NCBI RefSeq assembly: GCF_022808855.1
Contig: NZ_JAKZLF010000006.1
Location: forward strand, 62,001 to 126,000
Direction: 5' to 3'
Source: Anaeromyxobacter soli
Lineage (GTDB): Bacteria; Myxococcota; Myxococcia; Myxococcales; Anaeromyxobacteraceae
Length of the DNA stretch: 64,000 bases
Below, piece after piece: positions 4,777 to 47,301 of the stretch (the first letter of the stretch is position 1; each line of letters opens with the position of its first letter). The notes below the pieces were generated by a model. It saw nothing but the letters and a program-made list of their open reading frames with translations, had not been told where the DNA came from and made no database searches. The position numbers and the translations under genes are program-made.

Positions 4777-4784
4777 GGAGCCAC

Positions 4785-4802
4785 GTCGGGGAGCGCCCCG
4801 AC
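4785..4802 (+). terminator. Candidate terminator hairpin after the ureohydrolase gene
   Basis: A perfect 7-base inverted repeat (GTCGGGG, loop AGCG, CCCCGAC) begins nine bases after the ureohydrolase stop and lies before the universal stress protein gene. There is no clear run of T after it, so intrinsic termination is only probable. Confidence 0.4.
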
Positions 4803-4863
4803 CCGGCGGCGCGCGCGGAGCGCCGGCGTACTACACCCCGGGTGCACAGGAACGGAGGCGAAC

Positions 4864-5331: not shown

Positions 5332-6979
5332 CCTCCGCGCCCCGCGACGCCGAGCCCTCCGCCCCGTACTGCTTCAGCTTCCGCTTGAGCGTGGCGAGCC
5401 CGATCCCGAGCTCCGCGGCGGCGCGCGTCCGGTTCCCGCCCGCCCCCTCCACCGCCGCGAGGATGTACTCGCGCTCGACGTCCTCGAGCGGGCGCGTTCG
5501 TCCCGCCGGCCTCGGCCGCGGCATCGCCGCCCGCAGCTCCTCCGGGAGATCCTCGACGTCCACGCGGCTGCCCCCGCTGAGCGCGACCGCGTGCTCGATC
5601 GCGTTCTGGACCTCCCGGACGTTCCCGGGCCAGTCGTGGCGGAGGAGCTGATCGGCGGCGCGCGGCGTGAACCCGGTGAGCCTCCGCTTCATGCGACGCG
5701 CGGTCTCCGCGAGGAACACCCGCGCGAGCGGCAGGACGTCCTCCGGCCGCTCGCGCAGCGGCGGCACTCGCAGCTCGATCACGCGCAGCCGGTAGAAGAG
5801 GTCCTGGCGGAACCGGCCGGCCGCCACCTCGTCGGCGAGGTTGCGGTTCGTGGCCGCCACGACCCGCGCGTCCACCGCGCGCGAGCGGGTCTCTCCCACG
5901 CGCCGGATCTCCCTCTCCTGCAGGGCCCGCAGCAGCTTCACCTGCATGCCCGGCGAGACCTCCCCGATCTCGTCGAGGAAGAGCGTCCCGCCGTTCGCCG
6001 CCTCGAAGAGCCCCGCGCGATCGCGGTCCGCGCCCGTGAAGGCGCCCCGGGCGTGGCCGAACAGCTCGCTCTCGAGCAGGGTCTCGGTGACCGCGCCGCA
6101 GTTCACCGCCACGAAGGGGCGGCCGGCCCGGGGCGACTCCTCGTGGATGAGCCGGGCGATCCGCTCCTTGCCCACCCCGCTCTCGCCCGTGATGAGCGCG
6201 GTGGACTCGACCTTCGCCACGCGCAGCGCGAGGTCGAGGACGCGGTGCATGGCCTCGCTCCGCACGACGAGGCCGGAGCGCTCCTCCGCGCCCGGGGCGA
6301 GGCGCGAGAGCTCCTGCCGGCGGGCGCGCAGCCGCCGCTCGGCGCTGCGCAGCGCGGCGCTGACGCCCTCGAGCGCGCGGTCCACCGACGCCTTGTCGTA
6401 GAACTCGAGGTCGGGCTCGATCGCCGCTCCCCACTCCTCGCGCGAGCGGCCGACGAGGTGGCAGGCCGGCGCCCCCGCGCCGCGGCAGCGATCCTCGACG
6501 CAGTAGATCGCGCGGCCGTTCGCGAACGAGAGGTAGCCGCTCGCGAACCCGGCGAGCGTCCAGCAGACGGGCGCGTCGGCCTGGCCGAGGTGGAGGAGGT
6601 GCTGCTCCGCCTCGTACGACTCGTGCCAGATCGCCTCTGCGAAGGGCGCGGGGCCGTCGGAGGCGGATCGGACCGGCTGCTCGATCACCACGAGCCCCTG
6701 CAGCATGTGGAGCCGCCCGCCGGCGATCTGCCACTCGCGCTCGCTCTCCCACGGGAACTCCGAGCGCAGGCTCTCCGCCGTGCGCCAGCCGTGGGCGTAG
6801 CCGAAGCGCGTGAGGATGCCGCGCGCCGCGGTGAGGCCGAGGGTGTCGATGAGCTCCTTGCGCAGGATGCCGAGCGCCACCGCGTCGAGCAGGAGCGCGC
6901 GCTGCCCGGCGAACCGGATGATCCCTCCCGCGGGATCGAAGGTGAGCAGCTCCCTGAGATCGAGGTCCATCGCGCGCAT
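5294..6979 (-). CDS. Sigma-54 dependent activator with XylR-N/V4R sensor
   Basis: 561-residue enhancer-binding protein of the XylR/DmpR/MopR type. N-terminal sensor (about 10-190) with XylR_N-like start and a V4R segment whose cysteines (YCVEDRCRG...CHLVG) match the small-molecule/metal site of that family; linker about 195-245. AAA+ domain about 245-480 with Walker A GESGVGKE (about 263), the sigma-54 contacting GAFTGA loop (about 312) and Walker B GGTLFLDEIGE. C-terminal Fis-type helix-turn-helix (NRTRAAAELGIGLATLKRKL). Family members sense aromatic compounds directly. The ATG at 6979 has GGGAG upstream. The likely target is the divergent YceI operon, whose -24/-12 promoter lies 116 bases beyond its start. 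Confidence 0.93.
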   Translation of the reverse strand: MRAMDLDLRELLTFDPAGGIIRFAGQRALLLDAVALGILRKELIDTLGLTAARGILTRFGYAHGWRTAESLRSEFPWESEREWQIAGGRLHMLQGLVVIEQPVRSASDGPAPFAEAIWHESYEAEQHLLHLGQADAPVCWTLAGFASGYLSFANGRAIYCVEDRCRGAGAPACHLVGRSREEWGAAIEPDLEFYDKASVDRALEGVSAALRSAERRLRARRQELSRLAPGAEERSGLVVRSEAMHRVLDLALRVAKVESTALITGESGVGKERIARLIHEESPRAGRPFVAVNCGAVTETLLESELFGHARGAFTGADRDRAGLFEAANGGTLFLDEIGEVSPGMQVKLLRALQEREIRRVGETRSRAVDARVVAATNRNLADEVAAGRFRQDLFYRLRVIELRVPPLRERPEDVLPLARVFLAETARRMKRRLTGFTPRAADQLLRHDWPGNVREVQNAIEHAVALSGGSRVDVEDLPEELRAAMPRPRPAGRTRPLEDVEREYILAAVEGAGGNRTRAAAELGIGLATLKRKLKQYGAEGSASRGAEVSPAGSPPRASR

Positions 6980-7003
6980 CGGCCGTCTCCCGCCCTGATC
7001 GAA

Positions 7004-7037
7004 GTGAGCCGGATCGTATCATTCTGAGCCGGTTCAC
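7004..7037. promoter_or_regulatory. Candidate upstream activating site for the V4R regulator
   Basis: GTGAGCCGG at 7004-7012 and its near inverse CCGGTTCAC at 7029-7037 form an inverted repeat; TGAGCCGG also recurs directly at 7005 and 7025 (20-base spacing, about two helical turns). The site lies 58-91 bases upstream of the YceI -24/-12 element and 25 bases from the regulator's own start codon, a suitable place both to activate the operon and to limit the regulator's own expression. Sequence is seen; protein binding is inferred. Confidence 0.5.
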
Positions 7038-7094
7038 GATCCCGGCCCTTCCGTGATCGCCAGTGTTTCCGACAGTTTACTGCCCCGGGGCCGT

Positions 7095-7110
7095 GGGCCC
7101 GCCAGGTGCA
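7095..7110 (+). promoter_or_regulatory. Sigma-54 (-24/-12) promoter of the YceI operon
   Basis: GGGCCCG, four bases, GTGCA: 9 of 12 consensus positions, with the invariant GG (7096-7097) and GC (7108-7109) exactly 12 bases apart. The predicted transcript starts near 7121, leaving about 37 bases before the YceI ATG. The adjacent gene for a sigma-54 activator supports it. Confidence 0.6.
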
Positions 7111-7157
7111 ATCTCCTATCCCCGGACAACGAGCCCGGAAGGGCGACAGGAGAAAAG

Positions 7158-7706
7158 ATGGCTCAGGAGAACTGGCAGGTCGACGGCGCGCACTCGGGCA
7201 TCCACTTCACGGTCCGGCACATGGTGATCTCCAAGGTGCGCGGCAAGTTCACGCGCTGGAACGCGAGGCTCGCGCTCGACCCCGCGGACCTCTCCCGCTC
7301 GACGGTCGAGGCCGAGATCGAGGCGGCGAGCATCGACACCGGCGTCGCCGACCGCGACACCCACCTGCGCTCCGGGGACTTCCTCGACGCGCAGAAGCAC
7401 CCCGCGCTGAAGTACCGGAGCCGCCGCGTCGAGGTGCTCTCGCCGGAGCGGCTGCGCGTCACGGGCGACCTCACGATCCGCGACACCACGCGCGAGGTCG
7501 TCCTCGACGTGGAGTACGGCGGCCGCGGCAAGGATCCGTGGGGCAACGAGCGGAGCGGCTTCACCGCGACCACCTCCCTCAACCGCAAGGACTTCGGCCT
7601 CACGTGGAACCAGGCCCTCGAGACCGGCGGCGTCCTCGTCGCGGATCGCGTGGACGTCGAGATCGAGCTGCAGGCCGTCAAGCAGGCCGCTGCGAAGGTC
7701 GGCTAG
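7158..7706 (+). CDS. YceI family lipid-binding protein, cytoplasmic form
   Basis: 182-residue YceI-like beta-barrel protein; family members bind polyisoprenoids or amphiphiles in a lipocalin-like cavity. Typical features are WQVDGAHSGIHFTVRHM at the N-terminus, 'VRGKFTRWNARLALD', FLDAQKHPALKYRS and the C-terminal FGLTWNQALETGG loop. There is no signal peptide, so this is the cytoplasmic form. AGGAG at 7148-7152 supports the ATG at 7158. It is the first gene of a three-gene operon (four-base gap to the hemerythrin gene) behind a candidate sigma-54 promoter. Confidence 0.88.
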   Translation: MAQENWQVDGAHSGIHFTVRHMVISKVRGKFTRWNARLALDPADLSRSTVEAEIEAASIDTGVADRDTHLRSGDFLDAQKHPALKYRSRRVEVLSPERLRVTGDLTIRDTTREVVLDVEYGGRGKDPWGNERSGFTATTSLNRKDFGLTWNQALETGGVLVADRVDVEIELQAVKQAAAKVG

Positions 7707-7710
7707 CGTC

Positions 7711-8166
7711 GTGACGCTCTGCCCCGAGCTGCGCCGCCTCGCCGGCGAGCACGCCCGCTGGCTCGCCAAGATCGCGGACCTGGGCGCGGCCGACGCGACG
7801 AGGAGCGCCGAGCGGCTCCTCGACCTGTGGGACGCGGAGATCCTGCCGCACTGCCGCGGCGAGGAGGACGTGCTCCTGCCCGAGCTGGCGCGGCGCGTCT
7901 CCGAGGCGGACGCCGTCATCGTGTTCACGCTCGGCGACCACGTGGTGCTGCGCCGTCTCGCGCGCGAGCTGCGCGCGGCGGCCGGGCCGGCGCGAGGGGC
8001 GGTCGCCGCGAGCCTCGCGCGCAAGCTCGAGGAGCACGCCGCCTTCGAGGAGCGGACGCTCTTCCCCGCCCTGCAGGAGACGCTCGGGTGCGCGCGCCTG
8101 GCGGAGCTCGCCGCGGAGCTCGCGCGCCGGGCAGGGAGCGCGGGCCCCCGGCGCGCGGCTAGATGA
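7711..8166 (+). CDS. Hemerythrin (HHE) domain protein
   Basis: 151-residue all-helical protein. Histidines and carboxylates are placed as in HHE cation-binding domains: GEHARWLAKI near the start, ILPHCRGEEDVLLPEL (HxxxEE), TLGDHVVLRRL and KLEEHAAFEERTLFPAL. These would hold a non-haem di-iron centre for O2, NO or redox sensing, or for iron handling. GTG start four bases after the YceI stop; the Shine-Dalgarno signal is weak, so expression is probably coupled. Its TGA overlaps an in-frame upstream ATG of the dioxygenase gene. Confidence 0.75.
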   Translation: MTLCPELRRLAGEHARWLAKIADLGAADATRSAERLLDLWDAEILPHCRGEEDVLLPELARRVSEADAVIVFTLGDHVVLRRLARELRAAAGPARGAVAASLARKLEEHAAFEERTLFPALQETLGCARLAELAAELARRAGSAGPRRAAR

Positions 8167-8180
8167 AAGGCTCGAGAGCC

Positions 8181-8984
8181 ATGCACGACCCCACCCACCA
8201 TGCGACCGGGCGCATGCCCGTCCTCTTCGTGGGCCACGGCAATCCCATGAACGCGATCGAGGACAACGCGTGGAGCCGCGGCTTCCGGGCGCTCGCAGCG
8301 GAGCTCCCCCGGCCGAAGGCGATCCTCTCGATCTCCGCGCACTGGTACGTGGACGGCACCTACACCACCGCGAACGACCGCCCCGAGACCCTCCACGACT
8401 TCGGCGGCTTCCCCGAGGAGCTCTACCGCGTCCGCTACCCGGCGCCCGGCGACGTCGCGCTGGCGCGGCACGTGGTCGGGCTCGTGGGCGAGCGGCGGTC
8501 GTCGCCGAGCCTGGAGTGGGGGCTCGATCACGGGACCTGGAGCGTGCTCGTGCACCTCCGGCCCGAGGCGGACCTCCCCGTCGTCCAGCTCAGCGTCGAC
8601 GGCCGGCTCGCTCCGAACGAGCACCTCGCCATCGGACGCGCCCTCGCGCCGCTTCGCGACGAGGGGGTGCTCGTCATGGGCAGCGGCAACGTCGTCCACA
8701 ACCTGCGTCACGCGTTCTCGGCGTGGTCCCGCGGAGACACGACGACGCCGGACTGGGCGCGCGCGTTCGACGCCGAGGTCGCGGACGCCGTGTCGCGCCA
8801 CGATCGGACGGCCCTCGCCGGCCTGCTCGAGAGCGACCTCGGGCAGGCGGCGCATCCCACCCCCGACCACTACCTCCCGCTCCTGTACGCGGTCGGCGCG
8901 AGCGACCCCGGGGAGCCGGTGCGCTTCCCCATCGTGGGGTTCGACATGGCGTCGCTGTCGATGCGGTCGGTGGTGCTCGGCTGA
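8181..8984 (+). CDS. LigB-family extradiol ring-cleavage dioxygenase (YgiD/DODA-like)
   Basis: 267-residue Fe/Zn-dependent class III extradiol dioxygenase related to 4,5-DOPA dioxygenase. Conserved motifs: PVLFVGHGNPMN (metal His), ILSISAHWYVDG (second metal His), ETLHDFGGFPEELY, LEWGLDHGTWSVL and MGSGNVVHNL. I chose ATG 8181 because AAAGG lies 11 bases upstream; an in-frame ATG at 8163 overlapping the hemerythrin stop is the alternative and adds six residues. Third gene of the YceI operon. An aromatic substrate fits with an aromatic-sensing (V4R) regulator next door, but the substrate is not known. Confidence 0.85.
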   Translation: MHDPTHHATGRMPVLFVGHGNPMNAIEDNAWSRGFRALAAELPRPKAILSISAHWYVDGTYTTANDRPETLHDFGGFPEELYRVRYPAPGDVALARHVVGLVGERRSSPSLEWGLDHGTWSVLVHLRPEADLPVVQLSVDGRLAPNEHLAIGRALAPLRDEGVLVMGSGNVVHNLRHAFSAWSRGDTTTPDWARAFDAEVADAVSRHDRTALAGLLESDLGQAAHPTPDHYLPLLYAVGASDPGEPVRFPIVGFDMASLSMRSVVLG

Positions 8985-9016
8985 GGATCGCTTCCCTTCC
9001 CCATCCTGCCCTCCTG

Positions 9017-9044
9017 CGTGACCGCGCCGGTCACAGTGTGGCCG
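9017..9044 (+). promoter_or_regulatory. 28-base upstream element, copy A (cupredoxin)
   Basis: Starts CGTGACC, contains an inverted repeat GTGACCG / CGGTCAC separated by three bases, and ends GTGTGGCCG. 19 of its 28 positions are identical in copies B (10286) and C (32189), with no gaps. It begins 89 bases upstream of the sigma-54 promoter of the cupredoxin gene. Interpreted as the binding site of an enhancer-binding protein. Confidence 0.7.
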
Positions 9045-9105
9045 GCCGCTCCCCTCCGCTGCGGCCGCCGCCCGGGGAATACGGGCCCGTTCGCGCGAAT
9101 TTGGT

Positions 9106-9121
9106 CGGCACGCCTCCTGCT
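9106..9121 (+). promoter_or_regulatory. Sigma-54 promoter of the cupredoxin gene
   Basis: CGGCACG, four bases, CTGCT: 10 of 12 consensus positions, GG at 9107-9108 and GC at 9119-9120, spacing 12. The predicted start is near 9132, about 50 bases before the ATG at 9182. Confidence 0.75.
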
Positions 9122-9181
9122 ATCAGCCCCTCCGAACCGCGTCCGCCCAGGCGAACGCACATCCGACTGGAGAAGTCCCCG

Positions 9182-9610
9182 ATGACCACCAAGTCCTTCC
9201 TCCTGCCCGTCGCGGCCGCGTTCGCCTTCGCGGCGGCGCCGGCGCTCGCCCAGCACGATCACGGCTCCATGCACGGCTCCATGCACGAAGGCGCGGCGCC
9301 CGCGAGCGCGGCGCAGGGCATCGCCGAGGGCACGGTCGCGAACGGCGTCCGCACGGTGAACCTCACCGTCACGGACAACGGCTTCGAGCCGTCGAAGGTG
9401 AAGGCGAAGAAGGGCGAGAAGCTGCGCCTCGTCGTGACGCGCAAGACGAACAGCACGTGCGCGAAGGAGATCGTCATCAAGGACCACGGCATCAACCAGC
9501 CGCTGCCGCTCGACAAGGCGGTCACGGTCGAGCTCGTGCCGGCGAAGTCGGGCGAGATCCGCTTCGCGTGCGGCATGGACCACGTCAGCGGCGTGGTCTT
9601 CGTCCCGTAA
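9182..9610 (+). CDS. Periplasmic cupredoxin-like copper protein
   Basis: 142 residues: signal peptide (KSFLLPVAAAFAFAAAPALA, cleavage before QHDHG), a His/Met-rich N-terminus of the mature protein (DHGSMHGSMHEG), then one cupredoxin domain. Candidate copper ligands are the Cys in NSTCAKEIVIKDHG and the Cys/Met of RFACGMDHVSG, matching the Cupredoxin_1 family rather than classical plastocyanin. Likely to buffer or carry copper in the periplasm. It is a single-gene unit with its own sigma-54 promoter, upstream element and a strong terminator, just ahead of the Cus efflux operon that has the same control elements. Confidence 0.82.
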   Translation: MTTKSFLLPVAAAFAFAAAPALAQHDHGSMHGSMHEGAAPASAAQGIAEGTVANGVRTVNLTVTDNGFEPSKVKAKKGEKLRLVVTRKTNSTCAKEIVIKDHGINQPLPLDKAVTVELVPAKSGEIRFACGMDHVSGVVFVP

Positions 9611-9620
9611 CGCTCCGATC

Positions 9621-9649
9621 GGCCCGGCGCGGAGGTCTCGCGCCGGGCC
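9621..9649 (+). terminator. Strong terminator after the cupredoxin gene
   Basis: Perfect 11-base inverted repeat (9621-9631 and 9639-9649) with a seven-base loop, followed by the pyrimidine/T-rich stretch TCGTCTTCTC. It also separates the cupredoxin gene from the convergent gene ending at 9706. Confidence 0.75.
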
Positions 9650-9705
9650 GTCGTCTTCTCTCCGAGCTGCCGCGGCCCGACCTCCTCGCCGGCCGCGAGC
9701 GCCGC

Positions 9706-10056
9706 CTACTTCGCTTCCTTGCCGCGCAGCCGGTGGTAATCGGCCATCGTCTTCGCGTCCGCCGCCAGCTTGTCCGCGTCCTTGGCGAGCTGCGCGCAGT
9801 GCTTCTCCATCGTCGCGACGTCCTTGGGATCGCCCCGAGACTTCTTGTACTCCGCCGCCATCTTCCGGTGGATGTCGGCTTCCTTCCGCCACTCCGCCGC
9901 GTTCTCGTCGTAGATCTTCGCGAGCGCCGCGTGATCGGCCGGCGTCTCCGGCAACTTCATCATGCGGTCCTCGCGCGTGGGGTCGGCCGCAAGCCCCACG
10001 CTCGTCGAGATCAGGGCTGCCAGGAGCCCTGCCAGCATCACTGCCACGAGTCTCAT
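9706..10056 (-). CDS. Small helical periplasmic protein, unknown function
   Basis: 116 residues with a signal peptide (MRLVAVMLAGLLAALISTSVGLA) and a mature part predicted to be almost entirely helical, with a spaced His/Met/Cys pattern: HAALAKIYDENA, ADIHRKMAAEY, MEKHCAQLAKDA, MADYHRL. AGGAGG sits eight bases before the ATG at 10056. I do not recognise a named family. Proteins of this build (repeated A-x-x-H-x-x-M-A helices) occur beside metal efflux pumps, and this one lies between the cupredoxin gene and the divergent CusCBA operon, so a metal-binding periplasmic role is a guess. No sigma-54 promoter was found for it. Confidence 0.65.
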   Translation of the reverse strand: MRLVAVMLAGLLAALISTSVGLAADPTREDRMMKLPETPADHAALAKIYDENAAEWRKEADIHRKMAAEYKKSRGDPKDVATMEKHCAQLAKDADKLAADAKTMADYHRLRGKEAK

Positions 10057-36712: not shown

Positions 36713-37588
36713 TCACGACTTCTGCCAGACGCGGACCCAGTCGACGTCCATCCTGGTGGTGCTGGTCACGCGCGAGCCGTAGCCGCCCGCCGGCACGTAC
36801 CCTGCCCAGCTCGCGTCCGCGACCTCGCAGGTGAGCTGCAGGTACTCGCTCCGGTGCGAGAGCGCCGCGGCGGTCGTCCAGGCCGGCAGCCCGTCGACGT
36901 AGAACGTGTAGCCCGTCTCCGTCCACATCACCCCGAAGACGTGCCACTCCCCCTGGATCGGCGCGTTGCCGGGGAGCGACACGACCTTCTGGACGTTCTG
37001 CCGCGAGGACGCGGTGCGATCCCAGTTGAGGTTCATCGCCGACATGTCCTTCAGCGCCGTCCAGCCGTGGTCGTCCGTCGCGCGGTGCTCGACGACGTCG
37101 ATCTCCACGCCCGCCTTGCCCGGGTCGCCCATCGGATCGCCGTTCGTCGGCGAGTCGATCCAGAACGCGCACCACTCTCCCGGCGAGTCGTTGAAGCGGA
37201 TGCGAGCCTCGAAGTACCCGTACGTCATCTCGACCGTGCCCTGCGTGGAGAGGAAGCCGGTGTGGTGCTTGCCGGACGCGTCGGTGTAGGTCGTGAGCGT
37301 GAGGAGGCCGTCGTGCACCTGGGCGGCGTCGGGCGTGGCGATGGCGTCGAGGCGCGGGGCGGAGAGCGCGCTCCAGGCCGACCCGAGCGCGCTGCCCTCG
37401 AACTCGTCCTGCCAGACGAGCTTGTAGCCGGGCGGCGGCAGCGCGTCGGGGTTCGTGTTCGCCGGGACCTCCGTCGGAGGCGCCGTCGGCTGCTGGCGCG
37501 GCGGCTCGGGCGGCGGCGTGAGCCCGCACGCCGCCCCGAGCATCGCCAGAGCCACCGGGATCGCACTCTCCAGCCTCGATCGCTTCAC
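36713..37588 (-). CDS. Glycoside hydrolase family 16 lipoprotein (beta-glucanase type)
   Basis: 291 residues: signal/lipobox (LAMLGAAC, residues 14-21), Pro-rich spacer (22-50), GH16 jelly-roll. YKLVWQDEFEGSALGSAW opens the domain, GYFEARIRF and WIDSP lead to the catalytic EIDVVEH (nucleophile E and acid/base E, about 160-165), then WHVFGVMWTETGYTFYVDG. GH16 enzymes cut beta-1,3/1,4-glucans or related galactans. It is the last gene of the STAS-GT2-DUF3131 operon (19-base gap), suggesting it trims or releases the polymer made there. Confidence 0.88.
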   Translation of the reverse strand: MKRSRLESAIPVALAMLGAACGLTPPPEPPRQQPTAPPTEVPANTNPDALPPPGYKLVWQDEFEGSALGSAWSALSAPRLDAIATPDAAQVHDGLLTLTTYTDASGKHHTGFLSTQGTVEMTYGYFEARIRFNDSPGEWCAFWIDSPTNGDPMGDPGKAGVEIDVVEHRATDDHGWTALKDMSAMNLNWDRTASSRQNVQKVVSLPGNAPIQGEWHVFGVMWTETGYTFYVDGLPAWTTAAALSHRSEYLQLTCEVADASWAGYVPAGGYGSRVTSTTRMDVDWVRVWQKS

Positions 37589-37607
37589 GATCTCCTCCCA
37601 GCGCGCG

Positions 37608-39758
37608 CTAGAACGCGAGGTTCACGCCCACCGCGAGCACGCCGTTGTGGGACCAGCTCGTCGGTCCCCAGTCGTAGTAGGTGACGTAGAAGGTGCCCGG
37701 CCTCCAGTCCCACCGGCCGAACCCGTACACGACGCGCCAGCGCGGGGTGCCCGTGGGCCCCTCGAACACGCGCGGCACCGTCCACCCGATGCCGCCCATG
37801 GCGAACCACTTCCCCGCCACCGTGAGCGTCGCGCGCGCGCTCACGTAGGGACCGCCGCCGAAGGGGACCGTTCCGCCCAGGAGCGGCGAGAGGCAGAACG
37901 CGCCGCCGCAGAGGTTCGGGCCGCGGTAGCCGAGGTTGAGCTCGGCCCCGTGCATGGCGAGCCCGTCCCCGGGCCGGACCGGCCCCCAGTTGTCGAGGTG
38001 CAGGAAGAACGTCCGGCCCCGCCAGTCGTCCCAGCCGATCCCCCACAGCATCCGCGCGTTGCCGCCGGGCGAGAACGGCGTGCCCTCGGCGCCGAAGCGC
38101 AGGAACGAGGCGCGCCAGGGCCAGAGCGTCGCGACCGCCCCGGCGCCGGCGCGATCGACGCCGCGATAGTCGGTGAACAGGGAGAGCGTGAGCGGGTGCG
38201 CGTACAGCCGGGCCCGGTGCGGCGCAGTCGAGCCCTGCGTCACGGGCGAGATGGGCAGCGCCTCGGCGCGAGCGGCCTCGGGCGTCCCCGGGTAGCAGGC
38301 CCCCGCGACGCCCGGGAACGCGGCCGGGACCATGACCCCGCCGCGCCGGGCCGCGCGGGCCTGCGGCCCCCTCGGCCCGGCAGGCCACGGACCGTGCAGC
38401 GGGCCGGCGCGCGCGAACAGGATCGCCTCGAGGACGACGCCGTTCGTGTTCGCGTTGAGCGACCTGTTCATCCCGCCGCGCTCGTAGATCCCCGCGTACC
38501 AGCCGCGGGCGGGGTCGCGCGCCTGCGCGACGGCCTGGCGGAGCACGCGGGAGTACGGGTCCTCCGGGAAGAGCGCCGCCAGCGCGAACGCCGCCTTGGT
38601 GGAGAGCGCGCGGAACCGCCCGGCGTCCCCGCCGTCGGGCGTGAGCGCCTGCCAGGGGCCGCCGTCCGCCCAGATCGCGCCGTACACGAACCACGGCGCC
38701 TCGTCGACGTGGTCCTCGCTCGCGGCCGTCGGCACGCCGGTCTGCTCCCAGCGCCGTCGCTGCACCTCGAAGATCCGCCGCAGGAGCTCGCCCCGCTCGC
38801 CCCCGCGCCCGAGCTCGAACGCGCCGAGCACCCACGGATCGGTCACGAGGGCGTTCACGGCCCCGAACCGCCGCCTGTCGCGCGTGTCGTGGCGGACGGG
38901 GACGCCCAGGATCGGGGTGTCCGCTGCGAAGCGGTCGTAGTCGCGCGCGCGGGACACCGCGAAGCCGAGCCGGGCGAAGCTCTCCGCGGCGTACTGCTCG
39001 TACCCGAGCCGCCCTTCCTGGACGACCTGCACCTTGCCGCCCGCGTCGACGATCGCGCCGTGCAGCTCGCCGTCGCCGAGGAGCCGGCAGTAGCGCCAGC
39101 GCGCGAGGACGCGCGCCACCCCTGCGCGGTGCTCCGGGGCGCGCTCGGCGAGAATCGTCAGGGCCGAGGCCAGGCGGGCGAGGTCGATCGCGGAGAAGCC
39201 GATGCCGGTCGCGGTCGGCTTGTTCGCGTAGTCCGCCATCCGGCCCGTCGCGGCGTCGTACGTCTTGTTCGGCAGCTCACCCTGGAAGAGCGGCTGCATG
39301 GCCAGGGTCCAGAGGAGCGTGTCGATGCGCGCGTCGAAGGTGGAACGGTCGACGAGGCCGAGGTCGCGCGCGGCGAGCGTCGCGAGCACCGTCGAGCCGA
39401 GATCCCACATCGTCGTGTTCGGGTAGCCCTCGACCGAGTTCACGAGCCCGGTCGCCGGGTGGTAGTTCCGCTCGAAGTACCGCCAGGCGATCTGCGCCGC
39501 CTCGAGCTCGGGATCGACGGGGCGTGCCGGCTCCGCGGGAGGTGGCGCCGCCGGCTCGGACGGCGGAGGGATCTCCGACGCCGGCTCCGCGGCGAGGGCC
39601 TCCGGCGCGACGGCGTTGGGCCGCTGCGTCCCCGCGCCCGGCTCGGCCGCCGCCGCGGTTTCCGCCGCGGGCGGCGCGGGCGCTTCCGCGCGGACGGCGC
39701 CGCGTGGCGCGATCGCGAGCGCGGCGGCGAGGACGGCGGCGAGGACGCGGTCGCTCAC
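37608..39758 (-). CDS. DUF3131 domain fused to an outer-membrane beta-barrel
   Basis: 716 residues. Signal peptide (DRVLAAVLAAALAIAPRGAVRA), Pro/Ala spacer, DUF3131 domain about 85-460 (AWRYFERNYHPATGLVNSVE, YPNTTMWDLGS, GRLGYEQYAAESFARLG, LNANTNGVVLEAILF), then about 240 residues of alternating aromatic/polar beta strands ending ...LAVGVNLAF with a terminal Phe, the hallmark of outer-membrane barrels. GTG at 39758 overlaps the TGA of the upstream DUF3131 gene. DUF3131 is glucoamylase-like in fold prediction; the fusion suggests a polymer-handling periplasmic domain tethered to an export pore. Confidence 0.82.
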   Translation of the reverse strand: MSDRVLAAVLAAALAIAPRGAVRAEAPAPPAAETAAAAEPGAGTQRPNAVAPEALAAEPASEIPPPSEPAAPPPAEPARPVDPELEAAQIAWRYFERNYHPATGLVNSVEGYPNTTMWDLGSTVLATLAARDLGLVDRSTFDARIDTLLWTLAMQPLFQGELPNKTYDAATGRMADYANKPTATGIGFSAIDLARLASALTILAERAPEHRAGVARVLARWRYCRLLGDGELHGAIVDAGGKVQVVQEGRLGYEQYAAESFARLGFAVSRARDYDRFAADTPILGVPVRHDTRDRRRFGAVNALVTDPWVLGAFELGRGGERGELLRRIFEVQRRRWEQTGVPTAASEDHVDEAPWFVYGAIWADGGPWQALTPDGGDAGRFRALSTKAAFALAALFPEDPYSRVLRQAVAQARDPARGWYAGIYERGGMNRSLNANTNGVVLEAILFARAGPLHGPWPAGPRGPQARAARRGGVMVPAAFPGVAGACYPGTPEAARAEALPISPVTQGSTAPHRARLYAHPLTLSLFTDYRGVDRAGAGAVATLWPWRASFLRFGAEGTPFSPGGNARMLWGIGWDDWRGRTFFLHLDNWGPVRPGDGLAMHGAELNLGYRGPNLCGGAFCLSPLLGGTVPFGGGPYVSARATLTVAGKWFAMGGIGWTVPRVFEGPTGTPRWRVVYGFGRWDWRPGTFYVTYYDWGPTSWSHNGVLAVGVNLAF

Positions 39759-41101
39759 CGGCGGGCCTCCGGGGCCTCGGGCTCCTCGGGCCGGAGCCAC
39801 GGACCGCGCGCGCGGTACGCGAGCGCCTCCAGCACGAGCGCGTTGGTGTTGAGCGACAGCGCCCGGTTCACCGCGCCGTCCTGGTCGTAGCGCCCGGCGT
39901 AGAGCCCGCGCGCGTCCACGAGCGCCCGCGCCGCCGCGGCGAGGCGATCCGGGTACTCGCCGTCGAACAGCACGCCCCAGCCCACGGCCGCCTTGGTGGA
40001 GAACCCGAGGTCCTGCGGGACGGGGGTGCCGTCGGGCGCGAAGGCGGTCCAGCGCTCGTCCCCGTTCAGCACCGCCGAGTAGGCGAACCACGGCGCGCGG
40101 TCGAGCGCGTCCTCGGAGATCGCGGTGAGCTTCCCCGTCGTCGCGAAGCGCCGCTCCTGGACGCGCACGAGCGCCCGCGCGATGGGGAGCGTCGTCGCGT
40201 CGAACCCGTGCTCGAGGGCGTCGAGGATCCAGGGCTCGGAGAGGACGGCGGCGTGCGTGCCGCCGTACCGGCGCGGGTGGCGATCGTCGTGCGGGATCCG
40301 TTGCCCGAGGACCTCCGAGAACGCGAGGTGGGCGCGGTAGTCGATCGCGCGTGCGACCGGCACGCCCCAGGGCAGGAGCGCCTTGGCGGCGTACTGCTCG
40401 TAGCCGAAGCGGCCTTCCTGGTACCTCTCGACGGCGCCGTCCGCCCGCCGCTGCGCGCCGACCAGGGCACCCCCGTCGCTGAGCGCCCCGAGCCGCCAGC
40501 GCGAGACCGCGCGGCGCACGAGCGGCGTCAGCTCGGGGTGGCGCCAGGTCACGATCCACAGCGGGACGAGGACGCGGGCCACGTCGAGAGCAGACCAGCC
40601 GATCCCGTTCGGCGCCGGCCGGTTGTCGTACCCGACCATCTCGAGCGTGCGCGTGTCGTACGCCTTGTTGGGCAGCTTGCGATCGAACAGCGGGATCGCG
40701 CGGAGCGACTTCAGCGCCCGGCGCAGACGGAGCGCCGCCGCGTCCGTCGAGATGACGCCGAGGTCCTCCGCGGCGAGGATCGCCATGAGCTGCGAGCCGG
40801 TGTCCCACATGGTGGTGGACGGGTAGCCCTCGACCGAGCCGGCGAGGCCGGTCGCCGCGTCGGTGTTGCGCTCGAAGTAGCTCCAGGCCGCGCGCGCCAT
40901 CCGCCGCTCGTCCGCGTCGAGCGGCGCGGGCCGGCGGAGCGCGAGCGCCTCGTCCGAGGCCAGCGCGGCGAGCCCCGGGGCCGGCCCGGACTCGGCGCGC
41001 GCGAGCTTCCCGGCGTAGTGCACCGTGAAGATCGCTGCGGCGAGCCCGACGAGGAACGCGAGGTGTGAGCGCGCGGTGAGGAGTCCACCCCAGAAGCTCA
41101 A
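39755..41101 (-). CDS. Inner-membrane-anchored DUF3131 protein
   Basis: 448 residues: one N-terminal membrane helix (SHLAFLVGLAAAIFTVHYAG) then a periplasmic DUF3131 domain (about 60-440) paralogous to the next gene: AWSYFERNTDAATGLAGSVE, YPSTTMWDTGSQL, GRFGYEQYAAKALLPWG, SLNTNALVLEAL. The start is TTG at 41101, overlapping the upstream TGA (TTGA) with GGAGG eight bases before it; there is no closer ATG. Third gene of the operon, between the GT2 synthase and the barrel fusion. Confidence 0.85.
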   Translation of the reverse strand: MSFWGGLLTARSHLAFLVGLAAAIFTVHYAGKLARAESGPAPGLAALASDEALALRRPAPLDADERRMARAAWSYFERNTDAATGLAGSVEGYPSTTMWDTGSQLMAILAAEDLGVISTDAAALRLRRALKSLRAIPLFDRKLPNKAYDTRTLEMVGYDNRPAPNGIGWSALDVARVLVPLWIVTWRHPELTPLVRRAVSRWRLGALSDGGALVGAQRRADGAVERYQEGRFGYEQYAAKALLPWGVPVARAIDYRAHLAFSEVLGQRIPHDDRHPRRYGGTHAAVLSEPWILDALEHGFDATTLPIARALVRVQERRFATTGKLTAISEDALDRAPWFAYSAVLNGDERWTAFAPDGTPVPQDLGFSTKAAVGWGVLFDGEYPDRLAAAARALVDARGLYAGRYDQDGAVNRALSLNTNALVLEALAYRARGPWLRPEEPEAPEARR

Positions 41102-42930
41102 GCGACGACCTCCTTCTGCCGCCTCGGCACGAGCGCCGCCATGACGAACGGCGCGAGGCAGGCGGCGTTGTGCAGGCTCCAGAACAGGTTGGCGGCGTAC
41201 GCGGTCGCCTCGCCGGGCGCGGCCAGCGGTCGCGTGAGGAGCACGCCCCGGTAGACGAGCCCGGCCGCGATCGCGCCGAGGAGCACGAGGTGCGGCACGA
41301 CGAGCCCGAGCGGGCGCCGCGCCGACGCGATCTTGGGCGTGACGGGGAACCGCAGCGGGCGCCGGGCGACGACGTGGACGAGCGCGCGGAGGTTCAGCCA
41401 GAACGAGGCGAGGTGGTACTGCTCGCCGCGCCAGGTCGGCACGCCCCAGGTCCCGACCATCACGGCGAGCCGGCTCGTGAGGAGGAACGGCACGATGCGG
41501 ACGGCGAACTCGCCGTCGTACGCCCGCACGGGCGTCACCCCCGCGAAGAAGAACGCGAGCGGCGCGAGCATGAGCGGGAGGACCCACAGCGGCGCGAGGT
41601 ACGCGTACATCGTCGCGCCGTACATCACCTTCTGCCAGGCGGTGAGACGGCGCAGGCGCAGCGGGTTGTCGTGGAGCGCGATGTCGAGCGTCCCGCTCGC
41701 GTACTTGAAGCGCTGGATGCTCCAGGCGAGCAGGTCCTGCGGCGAGAGCATGCGGGTGAGGACCCGCGGGTGGTAAACGGAGCGCCAGGGTCGCGGCGCC
41801 GCGTGGAGCCGGATGCTCGTGTAGATGTCCTCGGAGACGTGGAACTCGTACGGCGTGAGCTCGATGCGGCGCGCCGCCTGCGACGCGAGCGCGGTGGCGA
41901 GCGTCGCGCGGCGGGCGCGGTCCGGCACCCGCTCCGTGATCGGGCGAACGGCCGCCTCGACCGCGGCGCCGAACTCCGTCAGGGCGCCCTCCATCACCGC
42001 CTCGCGGCGGTGCACGCTGCCCGCGCCGCAGCAGAAGGCCGCGTTGCACCAGTTCCGGCAGCGCTGGACCACGTGGTAGAAGGCGCGCGGATCCGACCCG
42101 AGCCGGTCCGCGCCGACGGCGATCGGCCCGAACGCCGCCTCGATCGCGCGACCGACGGCGCGGCCGGCGCGCCCGAGCCGCGCGCGGCGCGCGAGCCAGT
42201 CCGGGAGGCGCACGCCGGGGTCGAGGTCGTAGAAGGACTGCGGCGTCTGCACCCAGGCGACGCTCGGATCCCGGAAGTACCCGAGCGTCTCCTCGAGCAG
42301 GGCGGGCAGGGGCCGCGTGTCTGCGTCGCAGATGACGACGAGGTCGCCGTCGCTGTGCTCCAGCCCGTTGCGGAGGTTGCCCGCCTTGTACCCCTCGTTC
42401 GTCGCGCGGCTGAGGTAGCCGACCCCCTCCTCCCCGGCCATCCGGCGCATCTCGGGCCGGCGCCCGTCGTCGAGCACGTATACGCGCACCGTGAGCGGGA
42501 ACGGGTAGGTGAGCTGCTTCGCGTCGCGCACGGACAGGCGCACGAGCCCGACCGGCTCGTCGTAGGTCGTGATCATCACGTCGACCTTGATGGGCCGGTC
42601 GTGAGGGAGCGGCTCGTCGCGGAGCTCGTTCACCGTGCGCGGCGCCGGCTGCGCGGGGGGATCCTCGGCGCGCCAGATCGACAGGAAGAAGAGGACCGCC
42701 CCGAGGTACGCGAGGGTCTCCGCCGCCGCGATGACGACGGCGAACCCGAGCGCGTCCGGGTTGAGCGACGCGATCCAGCGCCAGGCGAGATACCAGCCCC
42801 CCAGCACCGTGGCGAGGACCGCCAGCACCTGGAAGGCGAAATTCCGCACCGCGTCGCCGCGCGCCCGCACGCCGGGCGCGGCGGTCTCGGGCTCGATCCG
42901 CGGAACGTACGAGGCGTCCAAGGCGATCAC
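41098..42930 (-). CDS. Cellulose-synthase-like processive glycosyltransferase (GT2)
   Basis: 610-residue inner-membrane polysaccharide synthase. Two N-terminal helices (about 28-85), cytoplasmic GT-A domain with DVMITTYDEP, VYVLDDGRRPE, DLVVICDADTRPLP (DxD, about 200), HVSEDIYTS (catalytic Asp, about 367) and QRFKYASG in place of the usual Q-x-x-R-W, then at least four C-terminal helices. No PilZ (c-di-GMP) domain follows the last helix, unlike BcsA, so control may differ. GTG at 42930 overlaps the STAS gene's stop (GTGA). The polymer is not known; the GH16 downstream suggests a beta-glucan. Confidence 0.9.
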   Translation of the reverse strand: MIALDASYVPRIEPETAAPGVRARGDAVRNFAFQVLAVLATVLGGWYLAWRWIASLNPDALGFAVVIAAAETLAYLGAVLFFLSIWRAEDPPAQPAPRTVNELRDEPLPHDRPIKVDVMITTYDEPVGLVRLSVRDAKQLTYPFPLTVRVYVLDDGRRPEMRRMAGEEGVGYLSRATNEGYKAGNLRNGLEHSDGDLVVICDADTRPLPALLEETLGYFRDPSVAWVQTPQSFYDLDPGVRLPDWLARRARLGRAGRAVGRAIEAAFGPIAVGADRLGSDPRAFYHVVQRCRNWCNAAFCCGAGSVHRREAVMEGALTEFGAAVEAAVRPITERVPDRARRATLATALASQAARRIELTPYEFHVSEDIYTSIRLHAAPRPWRSVYHPRVLTRMLSPQDLLAWSIQRFKYASGTLDIALHDNPLRLRRLTAWQKVMYGATMYAYLAPLWVLPLMLAPLAFFFAGVTPVRAYDGEFAVRIVPFLLTSRLAVMVGTWGVPTWRGEQYHLASFWLNLRALVHVVARRPLRFPVTPKIASARRPLGLVVPHLVLLGAIAAGLVYRGVLLTRPLAAPGEATAYAANLFWSLHNAACLAPFVMAALVPRRQKEVVA

Positions 42931-43256
42931 TCCCCGACGGCGGCGGCCAGATCGTCGAACTGCGGGAAGAGCTCGTCGAGCCGCGTCCGCTCGAGCAGCG
43001 CGCGGACGGACGGCGAGGCGTGGACGAGGCGCAGCTCGGCGCCGGCGTCCATCGCCTTGAGGAGCGAGATGAGCGCCGCGATCGCCGAGCCGTCCATGGC
43101 CGCCACGTGCTCGAGCGACACCACGACGCGCCGCCGCCCTCGCACCTGGTCGGCGACCCGCGCGCGCAGCTCCAGCGCGCACTCGGCGTCGAGCCGCGGC
43201 GCGAGCGGCGTGACGACGAGCGATCCGTTCCTGTGAGCGAAGCGGAGATGGAGCAT
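42927..43256 (-). CDS. STAS-domain protein (anti-sigma factor antagonist type)
   Basis: 109 residues with the SpoIIAA/STAS fold: GSLVVTPLAPRLDAECALEL, RRVVVSLEHVAAMDGSAIAALISL (the usual phosphorylatable Ser in the DxSG(I/L)xxL motif is here Asp-Gly-Ser), ELRLVHASPSVRALLERTRL. It is first in the exopolysaccharide operon, so a regulator of the synthase in cis is likely; no anti-sigma kinase gene is adjacent. ATG at 43256 chosen as the Met just before the fold starts. Confidence 0.8.
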   Translation of the reverse strand: MLHLRFAHRNGSLVVTPLAPRLDAECALELRARVADQVRGRRRVVVSLEHVAAMDGSAIAALISLLKAMDAGAELRLVHASPSVRALLERTRLDELFPQFDDLAAAVGE

Positions 43257-43700: not shown

Positions 43701-43988
43701 TCACCGGGAGTCGCCGCCGGAGTCCCGGTCCGAATCCCGCCAGACGCGCCGCAGCCGGAGGAGGGAGAGCGCGACCGCCCCGAACGCGGCCACGATCGCC
43801 GCCGCGGCGGTGATCCACGGCGCGCCGAGCGACGGGAACGACGACGCGAGGACCCGCGGGACGAGCCCGACCGCGATCACCGCGAGGAGCCCCAGCCCGC
43901 CCACCTGGAGGAGCCCCAGGACGGTGAAGGCCCTTCGCCGCTCGGCCTCCTCCGCTCGCTGATCTCGCTTTTCGTCGGGTTCGCGCAT
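43701..43988 (-). CDS. Small two-helix membrane protein, unknown
   Basis: 95 residues: charged N-terminus (MREPDEKRDQRAEEAERRR), two hydrophobic helices (VLGLLQVGGLGLLAVIAVGL; WITAAAAIVAAFGAVALSL) and a charged tail (RDSDRDSGGDSR). GAAGGA eight bases before the ATG. No family recognised. It follows the large spermidine-synthase-like gene by 64 bases on the same strand. Confidence 0.55.
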   Translation of the reverse strand: MREPDEKRDQRAEEAERRRAFTVLGLLQVGGLGLLAVIAVGLVPRVLASSFPSLGAPWITAAAAIVAAFGAVALSLLRLRRVWRDSDRDSGGDSR

Positions 43989-44052: not shown

Positions 44053-47000
44053 CTAGGGAGCGGCCCCGCGCGTCATGCCGGCCAGCGGGACCCGCCGGCG
44101 GTACCCCTCGAGCGCGGCGCGCGCGGCGTTCGCGTTCGCCGGATTGCCCGAGGCCTCCAGGATCGCGACCGCCCTCTGCTCCTGCTCGATCGCGCCGTCG
44201 AAGTCGCCGGTCGCCGCGTAGGCGACCGCGAGCGTCTCGAGCGAGCCCGGATCGCGGTCACCCGCCTCCTCCACCGCCGCGCGCGCGAGGCGCACCGCCT
44301 CGGGCGGATCGCGCAGGCTCGCGTCGGTCGCCAGCAGGAGGGCGAGGTGCTGCTTCGGCGCGGCGAGGTCCGGGGCGAGCTCCACGGCGCGGCGGAGCTG
44401 CGCCACGGCGTCCCCGGTGCGGCCCAGCATCGCCAGCGAGACCGCGAAGCGATCGCGCAGCGTCGCGTCCAGGGGCGACACCTGGAGCGCGTCCTCGTAG
44501 TGCTCCGCCGCCTCGCCCGTCAGCCCCTCCGCCTGCAGGATGTCGGCGAGCATCCTGTGGGCGGGTGCGAGGGCGGGGTCCTCGGCGAGCGCCTCGCGCA
44601 GCGCCGCGGTCGCGTCCGCCGTGCGCCCGCGCAGCGCGAGGACGCGGCCGAGATCGACGCTCGCCTCGACGAGCAGCGGGGACGCCTGGAGCGCGGCCCG
44701 GTAGAGGGCGATGGCGTTCTCGTAGTCCCCCCGCAGGTCGAGCCCCAGCGCGTGCGCGAAGATCGCCTCTCCGACGATCTGGTGGACCACGCCGAAGTCC
44801 GGCGCGTCGGTGAGCGCCCGCCAGAGCAACCCCTGCGCGCCGGTCGTCCCGCGCGCGTCGCCGACGAGCCCGTCGAGGAGATCGCCGACCGCCCGCGAGC
44901 TCGCCTCGAGCGCCGCGGCGTCCCCGCCGACCAGCGCGACGTCCCGGAGGCCTCTCCGGCGAAGCTGCGAGATCTCGGCGAGGTTCCCGGTGACCCGCTC
45001 GGCGTCCGCACCTGCGAGCGCTCCGGGCGGGTAGAACTCGAGGATGGGGCGCTCGCGGGAGTTCGTGGTGCTCCCGCCGGACACCCAGGCGCGCAGCGCC
45101 GCCGTGTCCGCGACGAGCAGGCTCGCCACGTCGGTGGCGCGGCGCCAGCCGTAGCGGCGGAGGTCGTCGGTCTCCGGCGCGTCGAGGACGCGCTGGACGT
45201 GGGCCATGTCGAGGGTCAGCGCCTGCTTCGAGCCGACGAGGAAGCTCGAGTGATGGCCCAGCCACATGTACGCGTGGGGGAACACGCCCGTGAAGGTGCG
45301 GACGATGATCTGCAGGTCCTCCGGCTCGACGTCGAGCGGCACCCACTGGATCATCGTCCCGTCCGCGGCGAGGTGGTCGAGCGCGCTCCGGTAGTAGTCG
45401 CTCGAGTAGAAGAGCCCGTTCCCAGCGTGCCCCGAGCGCGACTTGCCGTCCGAGATGATGGCGTCGTAGCGGGCGCGGCTGCGCTCGAGGTAGTTGACCC
45501 CGTCGTCGTTCACGACGCGGATGGCGGGGTGCTCCAGGGCGCCGCCGTTCCAGGGCGCGAACTCGCGCGCCGCCTCGATGACCGAGGGGGAGAGCTCGAC
45601 GCACTCGACGCTCGCGACGCCCGGATGGCGCGCGACCTCGCCGACCAGGATCCCCGTCCCGAGCCCGATCGACAGCACGTGCTCCGGGGTCCTCCGCGAG
45701 AGCATGAAGGGCAAATGGGCGAGGACCTGCTGCTTCATGTCCACGCCCGCGCTGCTCTGGCCGATCGTGACCCCGTCCACGGCCATGACGAGCTGACGCC
45801 CGTCCCGCGCGCGCCGGAACACCTTCACCGTCGAGACCGGCCCCTCCTGATAGAAGAGCACCGGATCCAGGGCCTCGCCGCCGCTGGCGGGCAGCGGCTG
45901 GGGCCGCCACGCCCACAGGAGGACGACGCTGCTGCACAGGCACACCGCGACGGGCGCCGCCCGGAGCAGCCTCGCTCGCCAGGGGCTCCGCTTCAGCTCT
46001 TCGGAGAGCCCCCAGCCCGCGCCGAAGAGGTTGAACGTGGCGACGAGCGCGATGCCCTTCTGCATCCCGAGCAGCGGCAGCACCACGAACCCGCCGAGCG
46101 CGGCTCCGGCGACGTTCCCCAGGGTGTTCGCGCCGTAGAGCTGGCCGAGGCGCCGGCCCAGCGTGTCCACCGAGCGCGCCCAGATCACCGCCGCGATGGG
46201 CAGCGTCGAGCCGATGAGCGTCGTCGGCACGATCATGATGAGGAAGCTGAGGGCGAACCTGCCCCACAGGGCGGTGGTCCAGCCCGGCTCGGCGGCCTCG
46301 AACCAGCGCTTCCCGTACTCGAGCACCCAGCGGGTCAGGGGGATCGTGGCGAGCGTCGACGCCGCGATGGCGACCTGGATCCAGCCGAGCGTGCGGCGCG
46401 GCTGGCGCAGGCGATCGACGAACGCCCGCGCGACGAGGCTGCCGAGCGAGATGCCGACGAGGAACGTCGAGAGCATCGTCACGAAGGCGTACGTCGAGGT
46501 GCCGACGAGGACGGCGAGCATCCGCGTCCAGAGCACCTCGAGGCACAGCGAGGCGACGCCCGAGAGCATCATGACGACGAGCAGCCGCCGGTCGGTGCTG
46601 CCGGGCGCCGCGTCGGAGACCCCCGGCGCGGACCGCGGCTCGGACGTGCGGGAGGGCTCGGCGCCCGGCGCCCTGCGACGAAGCGCGGCGACGCCGAGCG
46701 CCGCGACGCCCACGGCGCAGTTCACCGCCACCGCGATCCACAGCGTCCCGTGGACGCCCAGCGCGCGGATGAGCACGAACCCCGCGGCGACGCTGCCCAG
46801 CACCGCGCCGGCGGTGTTGAGCCCGTACAGGAGGCTCAGCCCGCGCCCGAGGTTCCCGATGCGCTGCACGAGCGCGCGGGTGATCGCGGGCAGGGTCGCC
46901 CCCATGAGCAGCGTGGGCGGGAGCACCACCACGGACGCGAGCACGATCCGGAACAGGAGCAGGGCCGGCGAGCCCGGCGGGAGCTGGGCGGCGGCCCACG

Positions 47001-47301
47001 TGTGCACGGGGTGGAGCAGGCGGATCGCCACGGTGCCGGCGATCGCAGTGGCGGCGATCCCGAGCTCGAGCCACCCGTAGACGCGGAGCGGGTCGCGACT
47101 CCGATCCGCGACCGGGCCGAGCGCCCATCCCCCGAGCGCGAGGCCGCCCAGGTACGTGGCGAGGACGGCGGTGATCGCATGGATGCTGACGCCGAAGACG
47201 TCGTTCAGCATGCGCGACCAGACGACCTGGTAGACGAGCCCGGCCGCACCGGAGACGAGGAAGATCGCGGAGACGACTGCGAGATCGCGTCGGCGTTGCA
47301 T
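44053..47301 (-). CDS. Membrane protein with spermidine-synthase-like and TPR domains
   Basis: 1082 residues in three parts. About 1-480: 12 or more membrane helices of the transporter-like type fused to spermidine synthases (FLVSGAAGLVYQVVWSRML; PTLLMGATLPAI; PTTLIGSTLPIA). About 500-720: a SpeE/methyltransferase-like fold with LSIGLGTGILVGEVAR, VECVELSPSVIEAA, VVNDDGVNYL and the YDAIISDGKS loop. About 820-1060: TPR repeats (ENAIALYRAALQASPLLVEA; TADATAALREALAEDPALAP). The enzyme core has the dinucleotide loop of aminopropyl transferases, but activity of such membrane fusions is not established. Confidence 0.82.
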   Translation of the reverse strand: MQRRRDLAVVSAIFLVSGAAGLVYQVVWSRMLNDVFGVSIHAITAVLATYLGGLALGGWALGPVADRSRDPLRVYGWLELGIAATAIAGTVAIRLLHPVHTWAAAQLPPGSPALLLFRIVLASVVVLPPTLLMGATLPAITRALVQRIGNLGRGLSLLYGLNTAGAVLGSVAAGFVLIRALGVHGTLWIAVAVNCAVGVAALGVAALRRRAPGAEPSRTSEPRSAPGVSDAAPGSTDRRLLVVMMLSGVASLCLEVLWTRMLAVLVGTSTYAFVTMLSTFLVGISLGSLVARAFVDRLRQPRRTLGWIQVAIAASTLATIPLTRWVLEYGKRWFEAAEPGWTTALWGRFALSFLIMIVPTTLIGSTLPIAAVIWARSVDTLGRRLGQLYGANTLGNVAGAALGGFVVLPLLGMQKGIALVATFNLFGAGWGLSEELKRSPWRARLLRAAPVAVCLCSSVVLLWAWRPQPLPASGGEALDPVLFYQEGPVSTVKVFRRARDGRQLVMAVDGVTIGQSSAGVDMKQQVLAHLPFMLSRRTPEHVLSIGLGTGILVGEVARHPGVASVECVELSPSVIEAAREFAPWNGGALEHPAIRVVNDDGVNYLERSRARYDAIISDGKSRSGHAGNGLFYSSDYYRSALDHLAADGTMIQWVPLDVEPEDLQIIVRTFTGVFPHAYMWLGHHSSFLVGSKQALTLDMAHVQRVLDAPETDDLRRYGWRRATDVASLLVADTAALRAWVSGGSTTNSRERPILEFYPPGALAGADAERVTGNLAEISQLRRRGLRDVALVGGDAAALEASSRAVGDLLDGLVGDARGTTGAQGLLWRALTDAPDFGVVHQIVGEAIFAHALGLDLRGDYENAIALYRAALQASPLLVEASVDLGRVLALRGRTADATAALREALAEDPALAPAHRMLADILQAEGLTGEAAEHYEDALQVSPLDATLRDRFAVSLAMLGRTGDAVAQLRRAVELAPDLAAPKQHLALLLATDASLRDPPEAVRLARAAVEEAGDRDPGSLETLAVAYAATGDFDGAIEQEQRAVAILEASGNPANANAARAALEGYRRRVPLAGMTRGAAP

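Follow-up and report, generated by a model that had tools for sequence, protein, structure and literature searches.

This work deals with a 64,000-nucleotide stretch of DNA from Anaeromyxobacter soli (contig NZ_JAKZLF010000006.1, positions 62,001 to 126,000; hereafter the window), and in particular with an operon of five adjacent minus-strand genes at positions 36713-43256. These genes encode, in this order, a STAS protein, a glycosyltransferase family 2 (GT2) synthase, a first DUF3131 protein, a second DUF3131 protein ending in a predicted β-barrel, and a glycoside hydrolase of family 16 (GH16). The genome comprises 5.3 Mb in 80 contigs; the window lies on contig C56 and has a GC content of 73%. 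The five products were assigned to families with Pfam and the synthase was also compared with NCBIfam; all the families proposed in a first-pass annotation, made from the sequence alone, were recovered in these positions and on this strand. The first four genes are joined by overlaps of 4 nucleotides, which read as claimed there: GTGA (STAS/GT2), TTGA (GT2/first DUF3131 gene) and GTGA (first/second DUF3131 gene), whilst the GH16 gene follows the fourth gene after a gap of 19 nucleotides.

The STAS gene (42927..43256) codes for a STAS-only protein of 109 residues of the anti-sigma-factor-antagonist type (PF01740, 1.3e-14), in which S57, within MDGSA, is phosphorylatable. The GT2 synthase (41098..42930; 610 residues, GTG start; Pfam GT2, 3e-13) presents the motifs DDG, DAD, SED, QRFKY and FCCGA. 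The first DUF3131 gene (39755..41101; 448 residues; PF11329, 9.9e-132) has a TTG start with AAGGAGG upstream, and the second (37608..39758; 716 residues, GTG start; PF11329, 5.9e-138) encodes a protein with a signal-peptide-like N-terminus, a DUF3131 domain at residues 84-451 (38406..39509; candidate residues D192, E254 and E348) and a C-terminal predicted outer-membrane barrel at residues ~523-716 (37611..38192), which shows 12 predicted strands in its AlphaFold2 (AF2) model and has F as its last residue. The GH16 hydrolase (36713..37588; 291 residues, GTG start, GGAGGAG upstream; PF00722, 8.4e-16) contains LGAAC and EIDVVE. A membrane GT2 sharing an operon with periplasmic and predicted outer-membrane parts fits synthase-dependent exopolysaccharide secretion in gene order and families. 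The layers of such a machine, as they were first described, are thus supported at that level, but the "outer-membrane pore" stays the prediction of a 12-stranded barrel.

The full five-gene order is found in four relatives from three genera, including the genus of the window (L026-L029): two genomes of the same genus with 80-94% and 78-86% identity, and two of other genera of the family with 49-70%. Because the same order recurs in relatives, it is not due to chance. In another family of the order (L030) the first four genes are kept, GH16 is lacking and the barrel is a separate gene. The high-GC relatives L026, L029 and L030 were judged by tblastn, and L031 and L032 are two contigs of a single genome. 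The distribution is patchy, since the operon is carried by 3 of the 9 genomes of the genus, and of 156 genomes taken from the phylum about 10 have full-length DUF3131.

At least 547 relatives were confirmed when 84,980 species genomes were scanned, and from these 77 loci (L035-L111) were kept as the top of the similarity ranking and not as a sample. They span Gamma-, Beta-, Alpha- and Zetaproteobacteria, Desulfobacterota, Campylobacterota, Kapabacteria and Myxococcota. The GT2–DUF3131 pair, mostly accompanied by a second DUF3131 and a barrel, is present in at least five phyla (Pseudomonadota, Desulfobacterota, Campylobacterota, Bacteroidota and Myxococcota), and the commonest core consists of GT2, both DUF3131 genes and the barrel. 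In the loci fetched by means of DUF3131, 46 of the 48 synthase genes are directly followed by such a gene, 20 of them with the identical 4-nucleotide overlap. The second DUF3131 and the barrel, fused in the fourth gene of the window, are separate genes in most relatives, and an independent-looking fusion is found in a Campylobacterota locus (L104). Neighbouring genes in the relatives code for HATPase_c_2, response regulator-SpoIIE and STAS proteins, GH2, GH9, and acyltransferases or nucleotidyltransferases. Related to this, plasmids of Pantoea agglomerans (L112) and Salmonella enterica (L113) carry clusters with a kinase-STAS-phosphatase set, an OpgC-type acyltransferase, the synthase, three DUF3131 genes, a hybrid kinase and a GH2-type gene; the Salmonella cluster also has an internal globin gene. 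The same gene set has been reported from population genomics as accessory "block 3b" of Klebsiella pneumoniae, with no function described; its list includes a cellulose synthase, three DUF3131, OpgC, a hybrid kinase, and an anti-sigma factor and its antagonist, whereas the window has two DUF3131 genes and a GH16 that is not listed there (PMC12974863). The search of the literature by the parts of the operon returned no description of it. The expected conserved synteny was thus found, and the make-up that had been called unusual is indeed distinct from the Bcs and Bgs systems, but it is conserved and widespread rather than a one-off.

Many of the carriers in the similarity-ranked list, which is not a sample, are filamentous or sheath-forming: Thiothrix, Leucothrix, Crenothrix, Sphaerotilus, Cocleimonas and cable bacteria. 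A link between the operon and sheath polysaccharide is only a thought, and the literature on the Thiothrix sheath showed no connection with these genes. As for the surroundings of the operon in the window, a gene for a 1082-residue product (44053-47301, minus strand) that appears to combine a transporter-like membrane part, a spermidine-synthase-like domain and tetratricopeptide repeats (TPR) lies directly upstream, separated from it by the gene of a small membrane protein (43701-43988).

The synthase of the window retains DDG, DAD, ED and Q-R motifs, shows five hydrophobic segments under a strict scan and aligns to BcsA at 1e-31. It reaches 199 bits with the CelA model (cut-off 699) and 34.5 of 422 bits with the PgaC model, and no OpgH model is among its family matches. 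No PilZ domain was detected by Pfam in this protein, as had been noted, nor in any of 29 family members out of 29. When BcsA, BgsA-like sequences and further synthases (curdlan synthase excepted) are placed in one tree, all 18 DUF3131-linked GT2s form their own clade with support of 100/100; the BgsA row is a reference which we take to be that protein from its adaptor–GT gene pair on pSymB. All 18 members have QRFKY (or QRFRY, QRYKY) and FCCGA, at sites where the other synthases have QxxRW and FFCGS, FFVGS, FCCGS, FCCGT or FCVGT. In BcsA the motifs at the QxxRW and FFCGS positions touch the growing chain, and therefore acceptor handling may differ in DUF3131-linked synthases.

Comparison with Bcs (BcsA-BcsB-BcsZ-BcsC) reveals common GT2 core motifs, a periplasmic (α/α)6 glycosidase and an outer-membrane barrel. 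However, the window operon lacks PilZ, BcsB and TPR, its glycosidase is of predicted GH189/GH144 type and duplicated, and its predicted 12-stranded barrel is fused to one of the copies. As the first-pass annotation had suspected, the operon does not belong to the Bcs cellulose synthases, which is ruled out by the lack of PilZ, the CelA score below cut-off, the QRFKY/FCCGA motifs and the separate clade. The rhizobial BgsA-BgsB type, a glycosyltransferase with an HlyD/RND adaptor, shares a cellulose-synthase-like GT2 and the lack of BcsB and BcsZ; membership of this mixed-linkage group is ruled out by the separate clade and by the lack of an HlyD/RND-type adaptor gene in the operon, where DUF3131 and a barrel are found instead. 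Among the operon products, Pfam and NCBIfam revealed no accessory families of the Alg, Psl, Pga or Crd systems. Another locus of the same genome (L118, G000:C1:162000-175000) codes for a 1130-residue fusion read as GH8-BcsA-PilZ (4345-7737), followed by a gene for a 692-residue TPR-plus-barrel protein (7771-9849), so that a compact Bcs-like system is present elsewhere in this genome.

The DUF3131 family was said to have no assigned activity, and this can now be amended with a predicted fold and a probable activity class. The first DUF3131 protein, whose AF2 model has a predicted local distance difference test (pLDDT) of 91, consists of an N-terminal membrane anchor (~residues 7-25) and a predicted periplasmic (α/α)6 barrel. 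Among solved structures, the model is closest to 8wy1, which is the GH189 domain from a cyclic β-1,2-glucan synthase (Z 35.4, root-mean-square deviation 2.7 Å over 344 residues); GH144, GH162 and the β-1,2-glucanase families that were named recently come next with Z 23-32, and for other (α/α)6 proteins Z does not exceed about 22. The predicted fold is accordingly placed by its Z of 23-35 to solved members in the SGL group (GH144/162/189/192-194). Profile comparison agrees with this: the DUF3131 profile matches 8wy1 in the PDB at 3.2e-5, the cyclic-glucan synthase of the genome itself (contig C25) at 1.1e-8 and a mixed profile of the wider group at 2e-10, the latter headed by an intermediate protein, from a related genome, whose two ends match DUF3131 and Glycoamylase respectively. 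A product of 509 residues, bridging both families with DUF3131 in its N-part and Glycoamylase (PF10091) in its C-part, is encoded in L033 of a related genome (G016:C119:36000-47000) at 4896-6422. The significance against GH189 is restricted to the N-terminal third, and the C-terminal half of DUF3131 alone gave no significant profile match to GH189. By alignment lengths, the large GH189 insert of helices between α4 and α5 is missing from DUF3131. In cyclic β-1,2-glucan synthase, this cyclisation domain, the closest to DUF3131 in fold and profile, lies within one 2800-residue protein together with GT84, whereas here two separate periplasmic proteins are found beside a GT2. These models suggest that DUF3131 is probably a β-1,2-glucanase/GH189-type (α/α)6 barrel. 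Where the GH189 domain begins, the Pfam model of DUF3131 scores above its threshold, and therefore automatic annotation may label such synthases "DUF3131". Neither DUF3131 nor any other DUF appears in the main text of a survey of the β-1,2-glucanase enzymes, and the literature naming DUF3131, as far as it was searched, gave no function.

Three candidate residues of the active site are proposed in the first DUF3131 protein: D173, E235 and E330. D173 is the near-invariant aspartate of SALD and aligns, within the significant match, to the CpSGL E142-type acid, for which the role of general base has been proposed in GH144 and related families (PMC12102758). E235, in GYEQY/GYEEY (column 172), is conserved in 126 of the 129 copies and is likely, by a low-confidence alignment, the counterpart of the general-acid glutamate (TiCGS E1356); E330, in SED (column 267), is kept in 119 of 129 and may correspond, again at low alignment confidence, to the GH189 nucleophile E1442. 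The FEYLMP glutamate was also considered as the GH189 acid and was discarded, as the numbering makes it E1400. Where other operons have a third or fourth DUF3131, the glutamate of SED or the aspartate after it is often missing from these copies, and therefore such paralogues may be inactive. These losses, together with the replaced GH189 histidines and the uncertain mapping of catalytic residues, would fit DUF3131 domains that are non-enzymatic guides binding the chain on its export path. Nevertheless, such guides are rather improbable, given that both copies of the window retain all the candidate acids and that the glutamates of columns 172 and 267 are conserved more than plain binding requires.

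The C-terminal ~195 residues of the second DUF3131 protein form 12 strands, predicted by AF2 with high confidence, and their nearest structural matches (Z 11-15) are 12-stranded autotransporter translocators and the KdgM/NanC oligosaccharide porins. No TPR domain was found at this protein. The model suggests that the barrel may be a pore. The GH16 hydrolase is a probable lipoprotein (LGAAC start) of the laminarinase/carrageenase type with its EIDVVE active site intact; its closest solved relative is the laminarinase 8xph (7e-11), and the ExDxxE motif is kept in all five copies, those of the window and of the four relatives. GH16 is thus present and conserved in the family, but it is an accessory at that level, and GH2 and/or GH9 replace it in other lineages.

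A laminarinase-like GH16 indicates a β-1,3-containing or mixed-linkage polymer, and the cellulase family GH9, whose genes neighbour the system in seven relatives, indicates β-1,4 links in other lineages; the polymer may differ between lineages. Both hydrolases, as well as the alignment of the synthase to BcsA, agree with the idea that the product is cellulose or a mixed-linkage β-glucan as in Bcs or Bgs, made with exchanged accessories. This is considered unlikely, although it deserves attention, as the synthases form a separate clade with their own motifs, the genome already has the GH8-BcsA-PilZ fusion with its TPR-barrel partner, and the DUF3131 fold is nearest to β-1,2-glucan enzymes, cellulases lying well below. 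That same likeness, the OpgC-type genes of the Pantoea and Salmonella plasmid clusters, the Acyl_transf_3 gene of Cocleimonas and the fact that a 12-stranded barrel is not necessarily a pore could point to a succinylated, osmoregulated-glucan-like product that stays in the periplasm, where its size would be set by the DUF3131 proteins and the barrel would be no more than an anchor. A periplasmic product appears quite improbable here: the synthase is cellulose-synthase-like by family match and OpgH is not among its models, the window operon lacks OpgC-like genes, and a product confined to the periplasm would hardly need a GH16 lipoprotein or an outer-membrane barrel of its own.

Regarding control, the STAS domain and phosphorylatable serine of the first product are those of an RsbV/SpoIIAA-type protein, as judged from the sequence, and every one of the 30 STAS proteins encoded in such operons retains the phospho-serine position. 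S57 matches the phosphorylated S56 of SypA, the STAS protein that controls the symbiosis polysaccharide of Vibrio fischeri (PMC4517449, PMC8256260). In the Syp system (SypA STAS/SypE kinase-phosphatase) a polysaccharide locus and biofilm are also involved, but that locus has 18 genes, whereas here the STAS gene overlaps a single synthase gene. Many relatives encode a complete partner switch beside the synthase (response-regulator/SpoIIE (PP2C) phosphatase, STAS and HATPase_c_2 kinase), and because of this STAS-based control is plausible, as was first supposed; together with the lack of PilZ, it favours STAS signalling over control through PilZ and cyclic diguanylate (c-di-GMP). The window genome has no second STAS close to that of the operon, and it offers candidates to act in trans: a PP2C-HATPase pair (contig C80, 149.1-150.1 kb) and a stressosome-like row of two STAS, three HATPase_c_2 and one PP2C matches (G000:C2:15694-18254). 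From the gene overlap and the retention of STAS, this protein may act on the synthase itself. It is also a serious possibility, somewhat short of even odds, that STAS controls transcription through an anti-sigma factor or a kinase, without any direct role at the synthase, since archetypal STAS-only proteins act so (PMC8256260, PMC10120452) and PP2C/HATPase pairs occur elsewhere in the genome. Against such a role, STAS is translationally coupled to the synthase gene in the lineage of the window and has been retained there without its kinase and phosphatase in the operon.

The best explanation of the whole set, with a probability of about 0.68, is a machine that makes a β-linked polysaccharide and carries it out of the cell under the gating of STAS. 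For its substrate, catalysis, export route and STAS target, we infer the following from gene order, conservation, the synthase clade, predicted folds and conserved residues. The product would be most likely glucose-based. GT2 would polymerise a nucleotide sugar and thread the chain through the inner membrane, as suggested by its cellulose-synthase core motifs; the membrane-anchored first DUF3131 protein would take the chain in the periplasm and trim or transglycosylate it; the second, tethered to the 12-stranded barrel, would work on the chain at the outer membrane, where the barrel would release it; and the GH16 lipoprotein would cleave the polymer at or near the surface. Phosphorylation of the STAS serine by partner switching, instead of PilZ/c-di-GMP, would gate the activity.

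Several points weigh against this explanation. Known exits for polysaccharides are wider than a barrel of 12 strands, and the linkage cues conflict, the DUF3131 fold pointing to β-1,2-glucan and the GH9/GH16 neighbours to β-1,4 or β-1,3. The candidate residues beyond D173 depend on a low-confidence alignment, in which E235 is maybe one residue off the GH144 acid and Asn-Thr stands in place of the GH189 pair H1536/H1537. Kinase and phosphatase genes are absent from the operon itself, so that partner switching would have to act in trans, and no experiment on any family member was found.

A further proposal, distinctly unlikely as a whole, combines two claims: that DUF3131 proteins are new GH189-related retaining transglycosylases, which act in the periplasm and at the outer membrane to join, cyclise or branch the β-glucan made by GT2, and that STAS belongs to the synthase as a direct subunit controlled by phosphorylation. 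If it were true, an entire lineage of exopolysaccharide machines would use partner switching instead of PilZ/c-di-GMP.

The general process, synthase-dependent export, is ordinary, but the DUF3131-linked set of parts is distinct, widespread and, as far as the literature searched shows, undescribed. It defines a polysaccharide synthase lineage with its own partners, present in at least five phyla and with no known product, whose carriers include enterobacteria associated with plants and animals as well as many sulfur bacteria that grow as filaments. DUF3131 gains a predicted fold and candidate active-site residues that can be tested, the β-1,2-glucan enzyme group becomes linked to GT2 synthases, and for the regulation of these machines there is now a specific and testable proposal, namely a STAS switch instead of c-di-GMP.

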